Positions 1-7,660 of a stretch of DNA of 58,252 bases are shown piece by piece. Location of the stretch: assembly GCA_011322625.1 (NCBI GenBank), contig DRMH01000076.1, positions 1-58,252 on the forward strand. Direction: 5' to 3'. The stretch comes from Thermosulfurimonas dismutans. GTDB lineage: Bacteria > Desulfobacterota > Thermodesulfobacteria > Thermodesulfobacteriales > Thermodesulfobacteriaceae. Each line of letters begins with the position of its first letter. Position 1 is the first letter of the stretch. The notes under the pieces are model-generated. The model searched no databases. It worked only from the letters and a program-made list of their open reading frames with translations, and had not been told where the DNA came from. Made by a program: the position numbers and the translations under genes.

Positions 1-183
1 GAAGGTGAGGCTTGGGACGAAATCGCCCGCAAAGTCTATGGCACAGAAAAACTCATGCATGTACTTCTTTCCGCCAACCCGAATCTACGGCACCACCTCA
101 CGCTTCCCGGAAACACGCAGGTGGTCTGTCCCGAAGTTGAAATCGAGACCGTGCCGGAGGTGCTTCCGCCGTGGAAGCGGTAA
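1..183 (+). CDS. Phage tail protein X (gpX), 3' part only
   Basis: The first 60 codons in frame 1 read as the C-terminal part of a gpX tail protein, a short LysM-like protein linked to the contractile tail of P2-type phages. Visible features are the GEAWDEIARKVYG stretch (typical LysM helix), an ANPNLR turn and the terminal LPPWKR motif that is characteristic of gpX. The 5' end lies outside the window. The stop overlaps the next gene (gpD) by 13 bases, the usual X-D coupling in P2-like tail operons. The family call is secure; the start cannot be seen. Confidence 0.85.
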   Translation, partial: EGEAWDEIARKVYGTEKLMHVLLSANPNLRHHLTLPGNTQVVCPEVEIETVPEVLPPWKR

Positions 184-1178
184 GGCGGGTGAGACCCCGC
201 ATAAAATATCTCAAAAAGGATATCACCGCAGATCTTGCTCCTTACCTCCTTTCCCTGACCTATACCGACTACGCCCACGGTAAGGCTGACGATCTCGAGA
301 TCCGCCTTGCCGACCGGGAGGGGCTCTGGTCCGGCCCTTGGTATCCGGGGAAGGGAGATAGGATCGAGGTGGAGCTTTTCTGTGAGAATTGGCTTGGATC
401 AGGCCGCCACGTGACCCTCCGCTGCGGGGTTTTCGAGATAGACGAGATCGAGGCCTCGGGGCCGCCCTCGGAGGTGGTCGTGCGGGCGCATTCGGCCCTC
501 GTCACCAAAGACCTACGCTCTACCAAGCGCACCCGCGCCTGGGAGAACACTAGTCTTCGGGCCATCGCCTCTGAAATCGCCGGGCACCATGGCCTTCAGC
601 TTATCTGGGACGGGCCGGATGTGCCCTATCGCCGCGTAGATCAAACCGAAGAACCGGATCTCGCTTTTCTGAAACGCCTTTGCGAGGCCGCGGATCGCTA
701 TCTAAAGCTCGCCCACGAAAAACTCATCATTTCAGAGGAGACCGCGAAGGTCGGCGGCCCCCTTGTCGGGACGATTATGAAAGAGGGGTGCAAGCGCTTC
801 CGTCTGCGAGATAAGACGCACCGGATCTTCCGGGCCTGCAAAGTTTACTACTTCGACCCCGAGCGAAAGGAGCTTCTTGAACACGTGGAGGAAGATCCGA
901 AGGCCCCGGCAAGCGGGGAGACCTTGGTGCTGAACGAAAGATGCGAGAGCCTATCCCAGGCCATTAAGCGGGCCCGGGCGGAGCTTTCCCGGCGCAACAG
1001 GTTCGAGACCGAGGGGGAGTTGGTTGTTCCGGGAGATCCCTCGCTTGTGGCCGGGGTTTCCGTGGAACTTAAAGATTTCGGGAGACTTTCCGGGCGATAT
1101 GCCGTGGAGGAGAGCCGCCACACCTACAGCCGGGCCGGTTACGAGACGAGCCTGCGCTTGAGGAGGGTGAGGGAATGA
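171..1178 (+). CDS. Phage late control protein D (gpD-like tail hub)
   Basis: This 335-residue protein matches the gpD family of contractile-tail phages, the hub that joins tail tube and baseplate spike (equivalent to T4 gp27). The N-terminal part contains a beta-rich hub region with YTDYAHGKADDLEIRL, where the family typically has a similar D-L-E/I run, and the length is usual. The start is GTG at 171, preceded by a GGAGG ribosome site at 158-162; there is no good ATG nearby. It overlaps gpX upstream and shares ATGA with the spike gene downstream, so it is translationally coupled. Known family role; assignment by motif and synteny. Confidence 0.85.
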   Translation: MEAVRRVRPRIKYLKKDITADLAPYLLSLTYTDYAHGKADDLEIRLADREGLWSGPWYPGKGDRIEVELFCENWLGSGRHVTLRCGVFEIDEIEASGPPSEVVVRAHSALVTKDLRSTKRTRAWENTSLRAIASEIAGHHGLQLIWDGPDVPYRRVDQTEEPDLAFLKRLCEAADRYLKLAHEKLIISEETAKVGGPLVGTIMKEGCKRFRLRDKTHRIFRACKVYYFDPERKELLEHVEEDPKAPASGETLVLNERCESLSQAIKRARAELSRRNRFETEGELVVPGDPSLVAGVSVELKDFGRLSGRYAVEESRHTYSRAGYETSLRLRRVRE

Positions 1179-1783
1179 TCGAGGAGATCCGGGGCGATCT
1201 CGAAAGCCTTGCGAGGATCGTTTTCCGGATCATCCGGGTGGGGGTGGTGGTGGCGACTTACCCGGAGCGGGGGACGGTCCGGGTGCGTTTCCTAGATCAG
1301 GATGGCGAGGTTTCCTACGAGATGCGGGTTCTGGTGCGCAAGACCCACCGGGACCGTGACTACTGGATGCCGGATGTGGGGGAGCAGGTGCTCTGCGCAT
1401 TTTTGCCCTATGGAAGGGAGCAGGGTTTTGTCCTGGGGGCCTTCTACTCCTCGGCTGATCCGGTGTCGGTAGCGGACCAGGAAGTTCGCCGGGTGGAGTT
1501 TGCGAACGGGGCCTATGTCGAGCATGACCGTCGCACGGGGAATGTTCGGGTGGAGACTCCCGGGGAGGTGGAGGTCCGGGCCAAAGGTACGGTGCGGATC
1601 GTCTCCGCCACTCAGGTAGTCATCATGGCCCCGAACGTGGTCATCAAGGCTGAGGGTGGGGCCACTACAGCCACCATGGAGGGTAATTTCACTCTCATGG
1701 GCAACTTAGAGGTGATAGGCAACATCCATGCCACCGGAACCATCATTGACGAGGGCGGAAACACGAATCACCACTCGCATTAG
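1175..1783 (+). CDS. Phage baseplate assembly protein V (gpV-like tail spike)
   Basis: This is the membrane-piercing spike of a contractile tail. The N-terminal OB-fold region (about residues 20-100) carries the family-type YPERGTVRVRF and PDVGEQVLCAF stretches. From about residue 110 the protein becomes a beta-helix made of short V/I-rich repeats. It ends in GGNTNHHSH, a His-rich tip like the HxH motif that binds an iron ion at the apex of P2 gpV. The length (202 aa) is normal. It starts inside the gpD stop (ATGA) and is part of the same operon. Confidence 0.9.
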   Translation: MIEEIRGDLESLARIVFRIIRVGVVVATYPERGTVRVRFLDQDGEVSYEMRVLVRKTHRDRDYWMPDVGEQVLCAFLPYGREQGFVLGAFYSSADPVSVADQEVRRVEFANGAYVEHDRRTGNVRVETPGEVEVRAKGTVRIVSATQVVIMAPNVVIKAEGGATTATMEGNFTLMGNLEVIGNIHATGTIIDEGGNTNHHSH

Positions 1784-1792
1784 GAGTGAGAC

Positions 1793-2182
1793 ATGCCCAG
1801 TCTGGGAAGCTTCGGACCGCTGGTCTTTGAGGTTCTGAGGGCCCCGGAGGCGGTCTCAAGGGAGATCGAGGAGGTTTATGCAGAACACGAAGTGGCCGGG
1901 GCAAAAGGACTTCTCGAATGGACCGGAGAGAAGCTCGCTCGAGTGACCTTGAAGCTCAGATTTCATTCCGTGTCCCTAGGGACCTTCACTTGCGATCCGG
2001 CGGAAGAGCTCTCCCGGATCAGAGAGTTAGCCCGTAAGCGCGAGGCCTACCCCCTCTTTGTCGGTTCCCGGCACATGGGTAAATTTGTGATTGAGAAGGT
2101 GAGGGAGACCCTGCGAGAGTTGGATGCTCACGGGAACCTGGTTATGGCCGAAGTGGAATTAACGCTCAAGGAGTATAACTAA
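1793..2182 (+). CDS. Phage gpU-like tail protein
   Basis: A 129-residue protein resembling the P2 gpU tail-terminator family. It opens with LGSFGPLVFEV (family: a short start followed by L-G-x-F-x-F). The middle has a strand-rich core, and the end is a beta strand (AEVELTLKEY) like the family's I-x-F-T-L-x-L end. The expected role is a ring that ends the tail tube. Position is odd: in many P2-like prophages gpU lies before gpX and gpD, here it sits between gpV and the gp25 gene. A ribosome site (AGGAG) lies before the ATG. The exact family is a judgement from a weak pattern. Confidence 0.6.
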   Translation: MPSLGSFGPLVFEVLRAPEAVSREIEEVYAEHEVAGAKGLLEWTGEKLARVTLKLRFHSVSLGTFTCDPAEELSRIRELARKREAYPLFVGSRHMGKFVIEKVRETLRELDAHGNLVMAEVELTLKEYN

Positions 2183-2493
2183 TGACCTTTGAGGTTGCAC
2201 CCGGGCTCAAAAAGATTGAGATCGGTCTCGAAGGTGTGGAGGAAATCCTACAGAACGTGGCCGTGATCCTGACTACTCCCAAAGGCTCTGTTCCGCTGGA
2301 CCGGGAGTTTGGGGTGTCGTGGATGTTTGTGGACTCCCCCACGCCGCGGGCCCTGGCTGAACTCCGGGCCGAGATTCTTTCCGCTCTCGAACGCTATGAG
2401 CCACGAGTGCGGGTTCTTGAGATTTCCTTTACCGCCGATGCCGGAAAGCCGGGAAAAGTCATCCCGAACGTAAAACTCGAGATCGTAACTTAA
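2182..2493 (+). CDS. Baseplate wedge protein, gp25/gpW family
   Basis: A small (103 aa) gp25-like lysozyme-fold baseplate wedge protein. Typical family features are visible: the ILTTPKGSVPLDREFGVSW stretch (the family's T-x-x-G-x-x-x-x-x-x-x-F/Y-G core) and the ERYEPRVRVLEI segment near the C-terminus. Its ATG overlaps the previous stop (TAATG), so it is coupled to the gpU-like gene. Together with gpJ and gpI it builds the baseplate wedge of the contractile tail. Confidence 0.88.
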   Translation: MTFEVAPGLKKIEIGLEGVEEILQNVAVILTTPKGSVPLDREFGVSWMFVDSPTPRALAELRAEILSALERYEPRVRVLEISFTADAGKPGKVIPNVKLEIVT

Positions 2494-2498
2494 AACGA

Positions 2499-2530
2499 TT
2501 TCCCTATATTCCTTATTTTCCCTATATTCC
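2499..2530. repeat. Perfect 14-bp direct repeat in the gp25-gpJ gap
   Basis: TTTCCCTATATTCC occurs at 2499-2512 and again at 2517-2530, an 18-bp period. The repeat fills the only real gap inside the tail operon and is much more AT-rich than the genes around it. A paired binding site for a late regulator or a simple duplication are both possible. No clear ribosome site for gpJ lies between the repeat and its start. Confidence 0.7.
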
Positions 2531-2565
2531 CACGCCCGGGGTATCTACGGGCTATCTTTTTCTTG

Positions 2566-3690
2566 ATGAGGCCGGCCTTCGGACTTCCGGACATAAGGTT
2601 CGTCGAGACCGACGCCGCCGAGGTGGAGCGGCGCATCCTTTCCACTTACGAGGAGATTACCGGCCGCAAACTCTACCCCGGAAACCCGGAACGCCTCTTC
2701 CTGGAGTCCCTGGCCTACATCATCGCCCAGCAGAACTTTCTTATCGATTATGCGGCCAAGATGAACCTTCTGGCCTACGCCAGAGGGGGACATCTCGACC
2801 ACCTGGGGGCCTTGCTGGGCGTTTCCCGTCTTTCCGCCCAGCCCGCAAGGACAACGCTTCGTTTCGAAATCGCCGAGCCCTTGAGCTTCCCGGTGGTTAT
2901 TCCGAAAGGCGCGCGGGCCACACCGGACGGAAAACTCTTTTTCGCCACGCTTTCCGAGGCCCAGATCGAGCCGGGAAAGACCTCGGTCGAGGTCGAGGCC
3001 GAGTGTCTTGAGGCCGGAACGAGAGGGAACGGGTTTCTTCCCGGGCAGATCAACCGCCTGGTCGATCCCGTGGCCTATGTGGTGAAGGTGGAGAATACCA
3101 CGGTTTCCCTCGGTGGGGCCGACACCGAAAGCGATGAACACTACCGGGAAAGAATTCGCCTAGCCCCGGAGTCCTTCAGCAACGCCGGCTCCCGCGGGGC
3201 CTACGAGTTTTGGGCCAAAAGCGCCCACCAGGACATCGCGGACGTCTCCGTGTGGAGCCCGTCCCCCGGTGAGGTAAATGTCTGTATCCTCATGAAAGAC
3301 GGGGGGCTTCCCTCCCAGGAGATCCTTGACCTCGTGACCCAGGTGCTTTCTTCCGAAAAGGTCCGTCCGCTCACGGATCAGGTTACCGTTCAGGCGCCGC
3401 AGACCGTCTCCTACAATATTGATCTTACCTACTATGTGTACCGCGAATACGAGGCCCTGGTCTCCCAGATCCAGCAGGCCGTAACTGAGGCCGTAAACGC
3501 TTACATTCAATGGCAGAAAACCAAGCTCGGGCGCGACATAACGCCTTCCGTGCTGGTGGACTACGTGCAGAGCGTGGCAGGGGTAAAGCGGGTCTCGGTC
3601 GTGAGCCCGGCGTATCAACCGCTCGAACCCTGGCAGGTGGCCCGGGAGGGGACCGTCACGGTGACCTACGGAGGACTTGAAGATGCCTAA
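2566..3690 (+). CDS. Baseplate J-like protein (gpJ)
   Basis: A 374-residue baseplate J family protein (equivalent to T4 gp6), which forms the wedge ring around the hub. The N-terminal helical region (GRKLYPGNPERLFLESLAYI, residues about 27-46) and the central ADTESDEHYRERIRLAP region (about residues 185-200) are hallmarks of the family. The C-terminal domain carries YYVYREYEALV and a V-x-R-V-x-V-V end. ATG at 2566 is the likely start; a TTG directly before it is in frame. No convincing Shine-Dalgarno sequence precedes either, unlike the neighbouring tail genes. Confidence 0.88.
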   Translation: MRPAFGLPDIRFVETDAAEVERRILSTYEEITGRKLYPGNPERLFLESLAYIIAQQNFLIDYAAKMNLLAYARGGHLDHLGALLGVSRLSAQPARTTLRFEIAEPLSFPVVIPKGARATPDGKLFFATLSEAQIEPGKTSVEVEAECLEAGTRGNGFLPGQINRLVDPVAYVVKVENTTVSLGGADTESDEHYRERIRLAPESFSNAGSRGAYEFWAKSAHQDIADVSVWSPSPGEVNVCILMKDGGLPSQEILDLVTQVLSSEKVRPLTDQVTVQAPQTVSYNIDLTYYVYREYEALVSQIQQAVTEAVNAYIQWQKTKLGRDITPSVLVDYVQSVAGVKRVSVVSPAYQPLEPWQVAREGTVTVTYGGLEDA

Positions 3691-4321
3691 CGATGGCAAG
3701 CTGGAGACGCTCCTTCCGGTCTCAATTGCCGGCGACGAAAAGATTAAGGCCGCCGCCCGGGCCTGTGACAGCGAGCTTGCCGAAATCGACCGAAACATCA
3801 ACGCCGTCTATATCCTTTCCCGTATAGACGAACTTCCCGAGCCTGTCCTCGATCTTCTGGCCTGGCAGTTCCATATCGAGGGCTACGACCTGGCCCGAAC
3901 TGTGGAAGAAAAAAGGGCCCTCGTAAAAAGCGCCATTGAGCTTCACCGCTACAAAGGGACGCCATGGGCGGTCAAACAGGCCCTTTCCTCCCTCGGTTTT
4001 TCCGCCGATCTTGATGAATGGTTCCGTTACGCCGGTCAACCCTACCGCTTCCGGGTCTTTATAGATCTCGAACGCTCCAGAACTCTTCTAACCTCCGAAA
4101 CTCTTTCCCAGCTTAAGAGCCTTATCCGGGACTACAAAAACGAAAGGAGCTGGCTTGAGACCATTGAAGGGGCCATCTTCGCCTCCGGCGGAGCCTACGC
4201 TGTCGCCGGAGCCGCAGAGGAGACAACCATTACCTTCATGGCTACAGCCGAAAAAGAACTTCTTGCCGAAGCCATCCCCGCCCTTCAGGGCGGCACAACC
4301 ATAGAGATTACCTGGGGGTAA
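3683..4321 (+). CDS. Phage tail protein I (gpI-like)
   Basis: A 212-residue member of the tail protein I family that links the baseplate wedge to the tail fibre. Family signs are DLLAWQFHIEGYDLARTVEEK (a D-x-L-A-W-x-x-x-x-x-x-D core, roughly residues 60-80) and the following HRYKGTPWAVKQALSSLG segment, the common KGTP-x-A-V motif. A GGAGG site at 3670-3674 is placed 8 bases before ATG 3683, which favours it over the in-frame TTG at 3677. It overlaps the end of gpJ by 8 bases. Confidence 0.88.
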   Translation: MPNDGKLETLLPVSIAGDEKIKAAARACDSELAEIDRNINAVYILSRIDELPEPVLDLLAWQFHIEGYDLARTVEEKRALVKSAIELHRYKGTPWAVKQALSSLGFSADLDEWFRYAGQPYRFRVFIDLERSRTLLTSETLSQLKSLIRDYKNERSWLETIEGAIFASGGAYAVAGAAEETTITFMATAEKELLAEAIPALQGGTTIEITWG

Positions 4322-4324
4322 ACC

Positions 4325-4855
4325 GTGGAACTTCTCATCACCCACATAGGACTCAAAAAAGCAAACGAAGCCCAGGCCGGAGGCTGGCTGATCAAGCTCA
4401 CCCACTTCGGCCTCTCCGACTCCACGGAATTCCCTTCTCCTGAATGGGAGTCCCTTCCCGGCGAGAAGATCCGTCTGCCGATTACTGCCTATTACATCGT
4501 GGATGACAATACGGTTGAGTTTCGCTGTATAGCCGACGAATCCGTTGGCGACTTCTGGGTGCGGCTTTTCGGACTTTATCTGGAGGACGGGACGCTCTTT
4601 GCGGTGGGCGAGACTCCTCTCTCACAGAAGCTCCGCGGCACGCGACTAACGGTTAAGGCCCAGGTGCGTCTGGTGAACGCCGTAAGCACATTCGATTTCA
4701 AGGATCTCTCGAAGGACTGGGTGACCATTCTGTTTCACGAGCTTGCCGCCACCGCGGGAAACCTCTGGCGGGCGATCATTCGCCTCCAGAGCCAGGTAGA
4801 AGGCCTAGAGACTCGTATTTCCGATCTTGAAAACTGGAAAAACAATATCTCCTAG
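4325..4855 (+). CDS. Tail fibre base protein (tail-collar fibre N-domain type)
   Basis: A 176-residue protein that resembles the N-terminal, baseplate-attached domain of contractile-tail fibres (gpH type): it opens with ELLITHIGLKKANEAQAGG and shows the LTHFGLSDS stretch common to this domain. The GTG start at 4325 follows a G-rich ribosome site just after the gpI stop. The last 50 residues are helical and end in a probable short coiled coil (LQSQVEGLETRISDLENWK), suited to trimerisation. The host-binding part seems to be in the separate downstream gene, so the fibre may be split into a base and a spike. Confidence 0.72.
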   Translation: MELLITHIGLKKANEAQAGGWLIKLTHFGLSDSTEFPSPEWESLPGEKIRLPITAYYIVDDNTVEFRCIADESVGDFWVRLFGLYLEDGTLFAVGETPLSQKLRGTRLTVKAQVRLVNAVSTFDFKDLSKDWVTILFHELAATAGNLWRAIIRLQSQVEGLETRISDLENWKNNIS

Positions 4856-4867
4856 GAGGGATAAGCC

Positions 4868-5788
4868 ATGACTCTTGATGAACTGATCCAGGCCCTGAAC
4901 AACTCAAGTGCCGATGCCAGGGAAGTGCTGAGCAAACTGCGGGAGCTTCTGCTGGTAAACGGTGATGTGAACTTCAATCTTGCCGACGGAACGGTCATCA
5001 CCGCCCCGTCCCTTCCTAAACTCCGCCAGCAGTACTGGGACAACATGGATTCCGTTATGGATCGCATCTACTACGTGGACGCGGTAAATGGAAACGACAG
5101 CAATGACGGTTCAGAGAGTGCACCGTTTGCGAGTTTGAAGAAAGCAATTGATAGCGTGCCTGTCGGTGGAAAAGGGTTGATTAATTTAATTTCCGATTAT
5201 ACTATTAACAACAACATTCAGATAGTCAATAAAGACATCACTATAAAGGTTTCCTCAGGAAAGATTTTAAAGCCAAGCTGGGCACAAGATTCTTCAAATG
5301 ATTTTAATTGGTTAAATGTTTTCAATCTTATAGGTAGAGTTATTCTAGGGATAAGTCTAGAAGATGGAGCAAAGGTCGTATTAGATGACACAGGTTATTC
5401 CACTACCGTAAATATAGGTGATAGTTCTTACACTCAGTTCATTAAGAAAGCTTCTAGGTGTATAGGATTAGTATATGTGAACGGTTCAAGCACTACTATC
5501 AAGCCTATTATTGAGTTGAACGGAGTGAATAGCAGTCCTGTATTTATGTCCGCAGGAAGTGACCATTCCTTAGAGTTTCTCGTGTTAAAATTATGGGAAG
5601 TTGATGTAGTTGTTAACGGACAAGGCAAACTAATTACGGCATATCCGGGTGCAGTTATGTTTTTCCCATCCCAAGCTTCTTTAATAGATAATACCGGAAC
5701 AATATCAAGTTGGGCAGATTTGATAGGTGGAATAGTTAAAGATGGTAATGGTGTGCCCAGGAACGTCCTTTCTAATGTAATTTTTTAA
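4868..5788 (+). CDS. Tail spike / receptor-binding protein with beta-helix
   Basis: A 306-residue protein likely to form the distal receptor-binding spike. The first 65 residues are helical. From about residue 70 the sequence YYVDAVNGNDSNDGS, followed by PFASLKKAID, is the common opening of right-handed parallel beta-helix (pectate-lyase-like) phage proteins. Residues 85-306 are rich in N, S, I and V as expected for such a helix. Base composition changes sharply: from about 5100 to 5788 the DNA is clearly AT-rich with A/T third positions, unlike the GC-rich head of the same gene. This points to an exchanged host-range module. No catalytic residues can be assigned. Confidence 0.7.
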   Translation: MTLDELIQALNNSSADAREVLSKLRELLLVNGDVNFNLADGTVITAPSLPKLRQQYWDNMDSVMDRIYYVDAVNGNDSNDGSESAPFASLKKAIDSVPVGGKGLINLISDYTINNNIQIVNKDITIKVSSGKILKPSWAQDSSNDFNWLNVFNLIGRVILGISLEDGAKVVLDDTGYSTTVNIGDSSYTQFIKKASRCIGLVYVNGSSTTIKPIIELNGVNSSPVFMSAGSDHSLEFLVLKLWEVDVVVNGQGKLITAYPGAVMFFPSQASLIDNTGTISSWADLIGGIVKDGNGVPRNVLSNVIF

Positions 5789-5807
5789 GTTTTAGGGGAG
5801 GTGAACA

Positions 5808-6257
5808 ATGATTAAGTATCTCAAAGTAGGCGATCAGATTTTTCAGAATATCGCACCCAAGACCTTCACCCCTGTTGAGTTTGATGAACAAGGCGATCCG
5901 ATCCAGTTCGAGGAGCAGTGGACAATTCCCGAGCTGGCGAACGAGGCAAAGGCCAGGGAGTGTTTCATTGATACCCTGAACTGGCTTACCGACCGCTACT
6001 TTTACGCCGAGGCCAAGGCCCGGGGTGGGTATCTCAACATGGGGGAGATTGAGCACGACGCCGCCCAGGGCGACTCGGATGCACAGTTCTTGCGTCAGCT
6101 TTACGACGCGGTGTGGGCGAAGGAAGAGGAATTGGAGGCCGAGCTTTCGCAGATGACGCTCCAGCAACTTTTAGAACTAGACCTTGAGTCTTGGGCACGA
6201 TCCGCCTACGATCAGGTCAAAGCCAATCTTGAGACCCAGTCTGGTGGAACCGCCTAA
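5808..6257 (+). CDS. Hypothetical phage protein, possible fibre assembly factor
   Basis: No family is recognised. The 149-residue protein is acidic, with a long helical C-terminal half containing AKEEELEAELSQMTLQQLLELD. It starts at an ATG after a strong GGGGAGGTG ribosome site 20 bases behind the spike gene. In contractile-tail phages the gene directly behind the fibre is usually a chaperone or fibre-assembly protein, and the EHDAAQGDSDAQFLRQLYDAV segment resembles helper proteins of that kind in tone only. Function is inferred from position. Confidence 0.55.
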   Translation: MIKYLKVGDQIFQNIAPKTFTPVEFDEQGDPIQFEEQWTIPELANEAKARECFIDTLNWLTDRYFYAEAKARGGYLNMGEIEHDAAQGDSDAQFLRQLYDAVWAKEEELEAELSQMTLQQLLELDLESWARSAYDQVKANLETQSGGTA

Positions 6258-6260
6258 GTA

Positions 6261-6294
6261 CATTCGGGGGCGGGGCCTAACCTCGCCCCGAATG
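6261..6294. terminator. Inverted repeat behind the fibre module, possible terminator
   Basis: CATTCGGGG at 6261-6269 pairs perfectly with CCCCGAATG at 6286-6294, with about 16 bases between; an alternative pairing with one bulge extends the stem to 11 bp. No T-run follows on either side, so this is not a standard intrinsic terminator. It separates the fibre module from the methylase gene and could end late transcription, protect mRNA ends or be a protein site. Confidence 0.45.
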
Positions 6295-6311
6295 CCTCGC
6301 TGGAGAACCCG

Positions 6312-7145
6312 ATGAGCGTTACCAAACCTCTGCCCCTCATAGGTGGGAAACGCCACCTGGTCAAAACCCTTCTCCGCCTCATCCCATCTCACCGGGTCTA
6401 TGTGGAGCCTTTTGCCGGTGGAGCCACTCTCTTTTTCGCCAAAGAACCCTCGGAAGTCGAGATCTTGAATGACATAAACGGGGAGATCGTGAATTTCTAT
6501 CGCGTCCTCAAACACCACTGGCCGGAGTTCTGGCGTCAGATCCGACCCATGTTCAAGAGCCGCAGACTTTTCGAGGATCTGAAAAAGACTCCACCGGAGA
6601 CGCTTACCGATATCCAGCGGGCCGTGAGGTTCTTCTATCTTTTGAAGAATAACTTCGGTGCCAAGCTGGATGGATTTCACTTTTTTGCCGGGCGTCGGGC
6701 AGAAAAGAAACGCTTTGCGCCGCGAGTCTTGAGGGCCAGGCTTTATAGAGCCTTTGGAAGGTTGCAGGAGGCTGTGGTGGAGAATCTGGACTTTGAGGAG
6801 TGTATCCGCCGCTACGATACTGAGGAGACCTTTTTCTATTGTGATCCGCCTTATTACGGCTATGAGTCGATGTATCCCGGAGCTCATCGTGAGGACTTCG
6901 ACCGCCTGGTGAGAGTCCTACGGGGAATCCGAGGAAAGTGGCTGCTTTCGAACGTGGATCATCCGAGGGTGCGCGAGGCCTTCAAGGGCTACCATATCCT
7001 TGAAGCGAAAGTCCCCTGGAGCACCGGAAACAGATTTCGTGCAAGGCAGAAAGTCGGCCGGGAGATTCTGATAGCGAACTATGATATAAGTGCTGGAAAA
7101 ATTGTCGAAAAATCAAGGGGGGGCAGCTTAAAAGCCAAAAACTAA
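6312..7145 (+). CDS. Phage DNA adenine N6-methyltransferase (D12/Dam class)
   Basis: A 277-residue class D12 adenine methyltransferase. Visible motifs are PLIGGKRHLV (residues about 9-18, the AdoMet-binding GGK region), YVEPFAGGATLFFA (about 35-48), EILNDINGEIVNFYR (about 55-69) and the catalytic DPPY at residues 178-181. The expected reaction is N6 methylation of adenine in a short DNA site, protecting phage DNA from host nucleases. It is the last intact gene of the prophage, a place where Mu-like phages carry DNA-modification genes (mom or dam). The length is typical; the target site cannot be read from the sequence. Confidence 0.9.
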   Translation: MSVTKPLPLIGGKRHLVKTLLRLIPSHRVYVEPFAGGATLFFAKEPSEVEILNDINGEIVNFYRVLKHHWPEFWRQIRPMFKSRRLFEDLKKTPPETLTDIQRAVRFFYLLKNNFGAKLDGFHFFAGRRAEKKRFAPRVLRARLYRAFGRLQEAVVENLDFEECIRRYDTEETFFYCDPPYYGYESMYPGAHREDFDRLVRVLRGIRGKWLLSNVDHPRVREAFKGYHILEAKVPWSTGNRFRARQKVGREILIANYDISAGKIVEKSRGGSLKAKN

Positions 7146-7199
7146 ATCAATCTTTCTGGCCGCAGCCTTTCCAGGCTTCGGGTAGCCCCTTGCAAAACA

Positions 7200-7367
7200 G
7201 TCTAAAGTTATCCTGCGAAAACACCCATGCCCCTCCGAACCCTTTGATTTTCAACATCCCGCTAAATCCCACCAAGTCCCGCCTAGTCCCGCTATTTGTT
7301 AACTAGTCCAAACTTATCTTGCAACTGTCTAAGTTTATCCTGCAATTTTTCTAAAACCGGCTTGCAA
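7200..7367. repeat. Array of ~19-bp direct repeats, probable transposable-element end
   Basis: Similar 19-bp units lie in the same direction: GTCTAAAGTTATCCTGCGA (7200-7218), GTCCAAACTTATCTTGCAA (7306-7324), GTCTAAGTTTATCCTGCAA (7327-7345) and a more diverged TTCTAAAACCGGCTTGCAA (7349-7367). The last three are spaced 21 and 22 bp. Such arrays of about 20-bp transposase sites mark the ends of Mu-like phages and IS21-family elements, and the outermost unit would give a terminal CA on this strand. Directly outside it the remnant integrase reading frame begins. The other end of the element is not in the window. Confidence 0.6.
7256..7295. repeat. Four tandem 10-bp repeats (helical period)
   Basis: ATCCCGCTAA, ATCCCACCAA, GTCCCGCCTA and GTCCCGCTAT follow each other without gaps (consensus RTCCCRCYWA). 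The period equals about one DNA turn, so each copy presents the same face. The repeat lies between the outlying and the clustered copies of the 19-bp terminal repeat. It may bind a phage or host protein that shapes the element end; no gene covers it. Confidence 0.75.
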
Positions 7368-7469
7368 TGAACAGAGACGGGAGCGTTCGACCTTTCTTCC
7401 GTCGGGGTAGGTGATCTTATACCGGACCCGGAAGCGACCCTTGTAGGGGTGACGGGAAAGGGTAGCCAT
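7335..7469 (-). pseudogene. Truncated tyrosine integrase, N-terminal remnant
   Basis: On the - strand an ATG at 7469, preceded by a good AAAGGAG ribosome site, opens a 44-codon frame. Its first 34 residues (7469-7368) include HPYKGRFRVRY and TYPDGRKVER, which look like the arm-binding N-domain of phage tyrosine recombinases. The frame then runs into the 19-bp repeat array and stops at 7335-7337, so the core and catalytic domains are missing. The start faces the 3' end of tRNA-Arg about 115 bases away, the usual place for an integrase whose target is that tRNA. Two TTTTACCGT copies with an 11-bp period (7483-7491, 7494-7502) lie upstream and could be arm or control sites. Confidence 0.6.
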
Positions 7470-7583
7470 GGGCCGGATCTCCTTTTACCGTATTTTTACC
7501 GTGTGATAGCACGAAACGACCCGGAACGACGCAAATTGATCCGGAAAACGGAGGTCCGGGAGGGTTGAAATTACGGAAATTTC

Positions 7584-7660
7584 TGGCGCGCCCGGGAGGA
7601 CTCGAACCTCCAACCTTTGGATTCGTAGTCCAATGCTCTATCCGATTGAGCTACGGGCGC
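7584..7660 (-). tRNA. tRNA-Arg (anticodon ACG)
   Basis: A complete tRNA on the - strand. The 5' GCGCCCG (7660-7654) pairs with CGGGCGC near the 3' end, the anticodon arm is TTGGA-CTACGAA-TCCAA (anticodon ACG), the T arm has GGTTCGAGTCC, and CCA is encoded (7586-7584). The 3' end points at the prophage side, so this is a likely attachment site for the lost integrase. A promoter-like TTGCCA/TAAAGT pair lies just upstream. ACG would be converted to ICG by TadA to read CGN codons. Confidence 0.96.

Follow-up and report, generated by a model that had tools for sequence, protein, structure and literature searches.

A Mu-like transposable prophage very probably interrupts the tyrosine-integrase gene of an older element at a tRNA-Arg gene in Thermosulfurimonas

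The window analysed here (58,252 nucleotides) is the whole of contig C76 from a fragmented genome of the genus Thermosulfurimonas (140 contigs, 1.91 Mb). Its first part (1..7373, + strand) was occupied by the right-hand part of a Mu-like prophage, with baseplate, tail and tail-fibre genes, a D12-class adenine methyltransferase gene and the right end of the element. Family matches assigned the tail and baseplate genes to P2-type families. The methyltransferase gene (6312..7145, + strand; PF02086, E 4e-28; phrog_56, E 2e-79) was the last gene before the right end. Beyond the phage terminus, and all on the minus strand, were the first 32 codons of a split tyrosine integrase (7374..7469), a leader containing the direct repeat ACGGTAAAA (7470..7583), and a tRNA-Arg gene with anticodon ACG (7584..7660), presumed to be the attachment gene of an older element. 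The integrase start was located 114 bp from the 3′ end of the tRNA-Arg gene, and the phage end about 210 bp from this gene. The initial annotation had described an integrase N-terminus facing the 3′ end of a tRNA-Arg, and both were indeed present, the integrase reading from 7469 to 7374.

A 61-base stretch of the window (2500-2560), with TTCCCTATATTCC repeats and then CCCACGCCCGG, was also observed on contig C3 (L022 1371-1431). The first copy lies in a gap preceding the baseplate J gene and the second in a gap preceding the lysis genes; the stretch could represent a phage late-promoter element.

Close to the right terminus, repeat comparison identified the end repeats R2 (7325..7345, TTGCAGGATAAACTTAGACAG), R3 (7304..7324, TTGCAAGATAAGTTTGGACTA) and R4 (7198..7218, TCGCAGGATAACTTTAGACTG). 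A further repeat, R1 (7347..7367, TTGCAAGCCGGTTTTAGAAAA), was weak by sequence (12/21) and is supported by its position, 6 bp from the right terminus, which is the same offset as that of L1 at the left end. All four read inward on the minus strand, with start-to-start spacings of 22, 21 and 106. The direct repeats first noticed by inspection are thus real, as four copies of about 21 bp, three of them closely spaced and the fourth at a distance. The 17-base core of the repeats, GTCYAARNTTATCYTGC, had seven exact matches in the genome (1.91 Mb): three on C76, three at a second copy of the right end on contig C121 and one, inverted, on contig C10. Since every exact match sits at an end of the Mu-like element, the end repeats are beyond chance. 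As a control, the reversed pattern gave only two matches, even with up to two mismatches allowed. One match to the repeat pattern on C3 (position 3383), with one mismatch and inside a coding region, was taken as chance. Against a 21-base consensus, R2 and R3 scored 18, R4 scored 17, R1 scored 12, and the left-end sites L1 and L3 scored 15 and 21, respectively, the last value reflecting that the consensus was written to fit L3. The best match outside the phage, in 50.7 kb of the window, was 16/21. R2 to R4 exceed this background, and R1 and L1 stand out mainly by position.

At its start, contig C121 repeats the final 224 bases of the right end in a version that is 94% identical to the first, with a 10-bp deletion and a few substitutions. 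It diverges immediately past TGAACA, into a tRNA-Thr gene and two tRNA-Ser genes, so that one kind of right end is found next to two distinct host sequences, and the element may insert at more than one site. Because the C76 and C121 copies diverge into different flanks at this point, the right terminus was placed at 7373. The terminal CA (7372..7373, + strand) pairs with a TG on C10 (from base 5789). The GTTCA at 7368, which had been taken as flanking sequence, belongs to the phage's own terminus (TGTTCA); likewise, the last host-derived integrase codon is codon 32, and not codon 34 as first proposed.

In a DNA search of the sampled genome for a second left end, only C10 was obtained, and the left junction of the C121 copy was not found. 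Contig C132 was considered as the left flank of a second insertion, by way of a chemotaxis gene located next to tRNA-Thr in related genomes, and was rejected, as the best match lay well inside the contig. The chances are slightly below even that the right end on C121 is a mere fragment, or belongs to another strain in a mixed assembly, in which case it does not speak for recent transposition. In keeping with this, the transposase, the portal and the left end were each assembled once only, and the two right ends differ by the 10-bp indel and a few substitutions; however, the first bases of C121 fall within a stretch that it shares without difference with C76, which would be the outcome if the assembler had collapsed the rest of a second copy. 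The main conclusion is independent of the status of C121.

The inverted repeat led to the other junction, on C10, where the remaining part of the integrase (base 5788 down to 4740, - strand) was followed by GAGAC and then by TGTGAATTGCAA; the integrase reads to GCGGCAGAGAC, then TGTGAATTGCAATTTG. At this left end, L1 and L3 were located 7-27 and 126-146 positions from the terminus, in the orientation expected for a left end; visual inspection alone suggested a possible L2 in inverted orientation. The element termini are TG...CA, and the repeat arrays are inverted between the left (C10) and right (C76) ends. The junction on C76 reads TGAACA/GAGAC/GGGAGCG. A target-site duplication, GAGAC, was therefore present at both flanks (7374..7378 of the window and 5784-5788 of C10), within integrase codons 31-32. 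On the host side, too, GAGAC is preceded by CA; taken alone, the C10/C76 insertion would formally also allow a duplication of 6 or 7 bp. We prefer 5 bp because C121 has the same CA before a different flank. The matching inverted repeat, the rest of the integrase and the 5-8 bp duplication that the initial annotation had proposed to look for were all recovered in this way.

When the flanks were rejoined with one GAGAC, an uninterrupted integrase of 379 amino acids was obtained, with no stop. The integrase body on C10 matched PF00589 (E 5e-20). The N-terminal stub of 44 amino acids, on its own, was not recognized by Pfam, and it matched codons 1-32 of intact orthologues. Uncut orthologues of this integrase were found in two genomes of the same genus, G003 (93% identity) and G004 (73%), beside a tRNA-Arg gene in both; each had GAGAC once, and one copy of GAGACGGGAGCG at the site of insertion. 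No relatives of the transposase described below were found in G003 or G004. These uncut genes serve as an empty-site control.

Genes of a Mu-like phage were identified on several other contigs. A transposase of 906 amino acids on contig C91 matched phrog_310 (E 2.5e-71), with Mu-transpos_C over the cut-off and a match to the MuA structure 4fcy (E 4.6e-6); D424, D495 and E577 are candidate catalytic residues, based on motif. Beside it was a MuB-like ATPase (phrog_296, E 2e-49; AAA_22 and TniB in Pfam), and the same contig contained GemA (E 9e-8). The expected MuA/IstA-like transposase gene is thus present, and is of the MuA type. A leftward phage-repressor-like gene was located near the left end on C10. 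On C3, we found a Mu-type portal (Portal_Mu, E 1.9e-87), as well as terminase-like and MuF-type genes. Contig C99, which has a 39-base overlap with the start of the window, contained contractile sheath, tube-like and tape-measure-like genes, in agreement with the contractile tail suggested earlier. Together, the phage pieces total about 32 kb; transposable prophages of 36-39 kb have been described (PMC8705779). The phage is split over contigs with gaps and, apart from the C99-C76 overlap, we infer that these contigs belong to one copy. Likewise, a single continuous insertion would extend from the left end on C10 to the right end on C76.

Queries against genome contigs, viral contigs and phage records yielded no close relative of the transposase; identity was 26% in phage records and 29% in the nearest relative genome. 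Among viral contigs fetched with the baseplate protein, only the portal was matched (27%, one contig), and the transposase, ATPase, methyltransferase and terminase had no match. Within the transposase gene (L020 1652-1900), seven copies of AACGACA and four copies of GTGGAAAC, which encode NDTNDI and VET repeats, were observed between two HTH domains; these repeats possibly form a linker or an in-gene regulatory site. It is conceivable, but rather unlikely, that a separate lineage of transposable phages from thermophiles begins with this prophage. Such a lineage would combine a Mu-type head with a P2-type tail and have a divergent transposase of the MuA type, with an additional HTH at its N-terminus and a linker filled with repeats that might serve as a transposition enhancer or operator within the gene. 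At its C-terminus, the MuF-type head protein (C3, L151 363-1988) seemed to have a zincin-like motif (HEFGH) of the kind found in MuF fusion proteins, as noted by eye only. Moreover, a second contractile-sheath gene was observed on contig C8 (L160, 9000-20000), perhaps from another prophage or contractile system.

Overall, a Mu-like, contractile-tailed transposable phage appears to have inserted into the tyrosine-integrase gene of an older element at tRNA-Arg(ACG), a reading to which we give a probability of about 0.95. The nested insertion had been proposed from the window alone, and it is supported by the two junctions, the GAGAC duplication, the uncut orthologues, the MuA/MuB-type genes and the sheath. 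By analogy with established knowledge of Mu, the transposase would bind the repeats of about 21 bp at both ends (R1-R4; L1, L3 and perhaps the inverted L2) and pair the TG...CA termini. Strand transfer by the DDE transposase would then join the termini to the target strands at positions 5 bp from each other, around integrase codon 32, and gap repair would yield the GAGAC duplication. The insertion parts the integrase start and N-terminus from the catalytic domain. We also infer replicative transposition and viability of the phage.

Two other origins of this arrangement were weighed. The phage could itself be a tRNA-Arg-targeted element, with its own integrase and site-specific recombination at the tRNA; its end is about 210 bp from the tRNA-Arg, with the integrase start in between. 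Yet the phage interrupts the integrase, of which exactly GAGAC is duplicated, uncut orthologues are found at tRNA-Arg in relatives that lack a related transposase, and the phage has MuA/MuB-type genes of its own, which makes this origin highly improbable. Neither an intact integrase nor a tRNA duplication flanking the phage was seen, and the transposase was not missing. Repeated transposase sites are a feature of IS21 ends as well, and an insertion sequence of this type (istA/istB) beside an unrelated prophage might have made the repeats and the scar, but this has equally little in its favour: the right end is without istA/istB and phage tail and methyltransferase genes reach 7145, the left end adjoins the phage-repressor-like gene, and the transposase and ATPase best match phage Mu-type families. 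Of the two kinds of element initially named for such end arrays, Mu and IS21, the first fits here, as phage structural and regulatory genes adjoin the two ends, in contrast to a short element of istA and istB.

The prophage is best compared with Mu and Mu-like transposable phages, with which it shares a MuA-type DDE transposase beside a MuB-like ATPase, the GemA protein, a repressor-like gene that reads leftward at the left end, a Mu-type portal and MuF, TG...CA ends and a 5-bp target duplication. Arrays of about 21-bp sites, putative in our case, are found at both ends of each, with R1 and R2 adjacent. In contrast to Mu, the transposase is far from known ones, the right end has four sites, and the tail and baseplate are of P2 type; no mom-type gene was seen, and a D12 methyltransferase is located at the right end. 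Terminal repeats also mark the transposable prophage KS10, in which there are four 15-nt sites in all, inverted between the ends, and no flanking duplication was found (PMC2628397), whereas the repeats described here are longer and accompanied by a 5-bp duplication. Leptospira transposable prophages have TG-CA ends and a short duplication as well, of 6 bp (PMC8705779) instead of 5 bp.

Nesting of a Mu-like transposable prophage within a tRNA-targeted integrative element is of a known kind; this is a clean example of an ordinary event. The new aspect is a further member, from a thermophile lineage that has been little sampled, with a divergent transposase. In our paper searches, nothing specific was found on Thermosulfurimonas with Mu-like or transposable phages. 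The exact ends, the target scar and candidate transposase sites are given here for a Mu-like phage of thermophilic Thermosulfurimonas, and a MuA/MuB-type pair that is heat-stable and has known end sequences could serve for in vitro transposition.

As for the older element, orthologues of the integrase lineage were found at tRNA-Arg genes in three genomes of the same genus, with a leader that is largely conserved among the orthologous islands. The host gene varied among isoacceptors: tRNA-Arg(ACG) in the sampled genome, tRNA-Arg(CCG) in G003 and G002, and tRNA-Arg(TCT) in G004. An HTH_17 (excisionase-like) gene was common to C10 and the G003 island. As in other tRNA-targeted integrative elements, the integrase gene starts beside the 3′ end of a tRNA and an excisionase-like HTH gene is present; the cut integrase and the use of ACG, CCG and TCT isoacceptors by one lineage set this island apart. 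A tRNA-targeted island, as initially suggested, is thus supported by the integrase, the excisionase-like gene and the orthologous integrase-tRNA pairs; its far att site, or a partial copy of the tRNA 3′ end, was not found in the fragmented sampled genome or in 37 kb of G003. Because the integrase body is without its first 31 codons and the tRNA-facing leader, the island has probably lost its self-mobility. The locus would illustrate how one mobile element, probably, disables another at a tRNA gene, with uncut sister copies as controls.

In the sampled genome, a degraded leader and integrase start of the same lineage were located behind tRNA-Arg(CCG) on contig C56 (L003 1499-1720), likely the scar of a former island. 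In G002 (contig C148, L028 1487-1520), the integrase was missing residues 1-17 as well as the leader, and was joined almost directly to the 3′ end of tRNA-Arg(CCG), an apparent deletion. Finally, immediately behind the split integrase, the older island carried a MazE/MazF (PemK) toxin-antitoxin pair (C10, L021 4082-4721).
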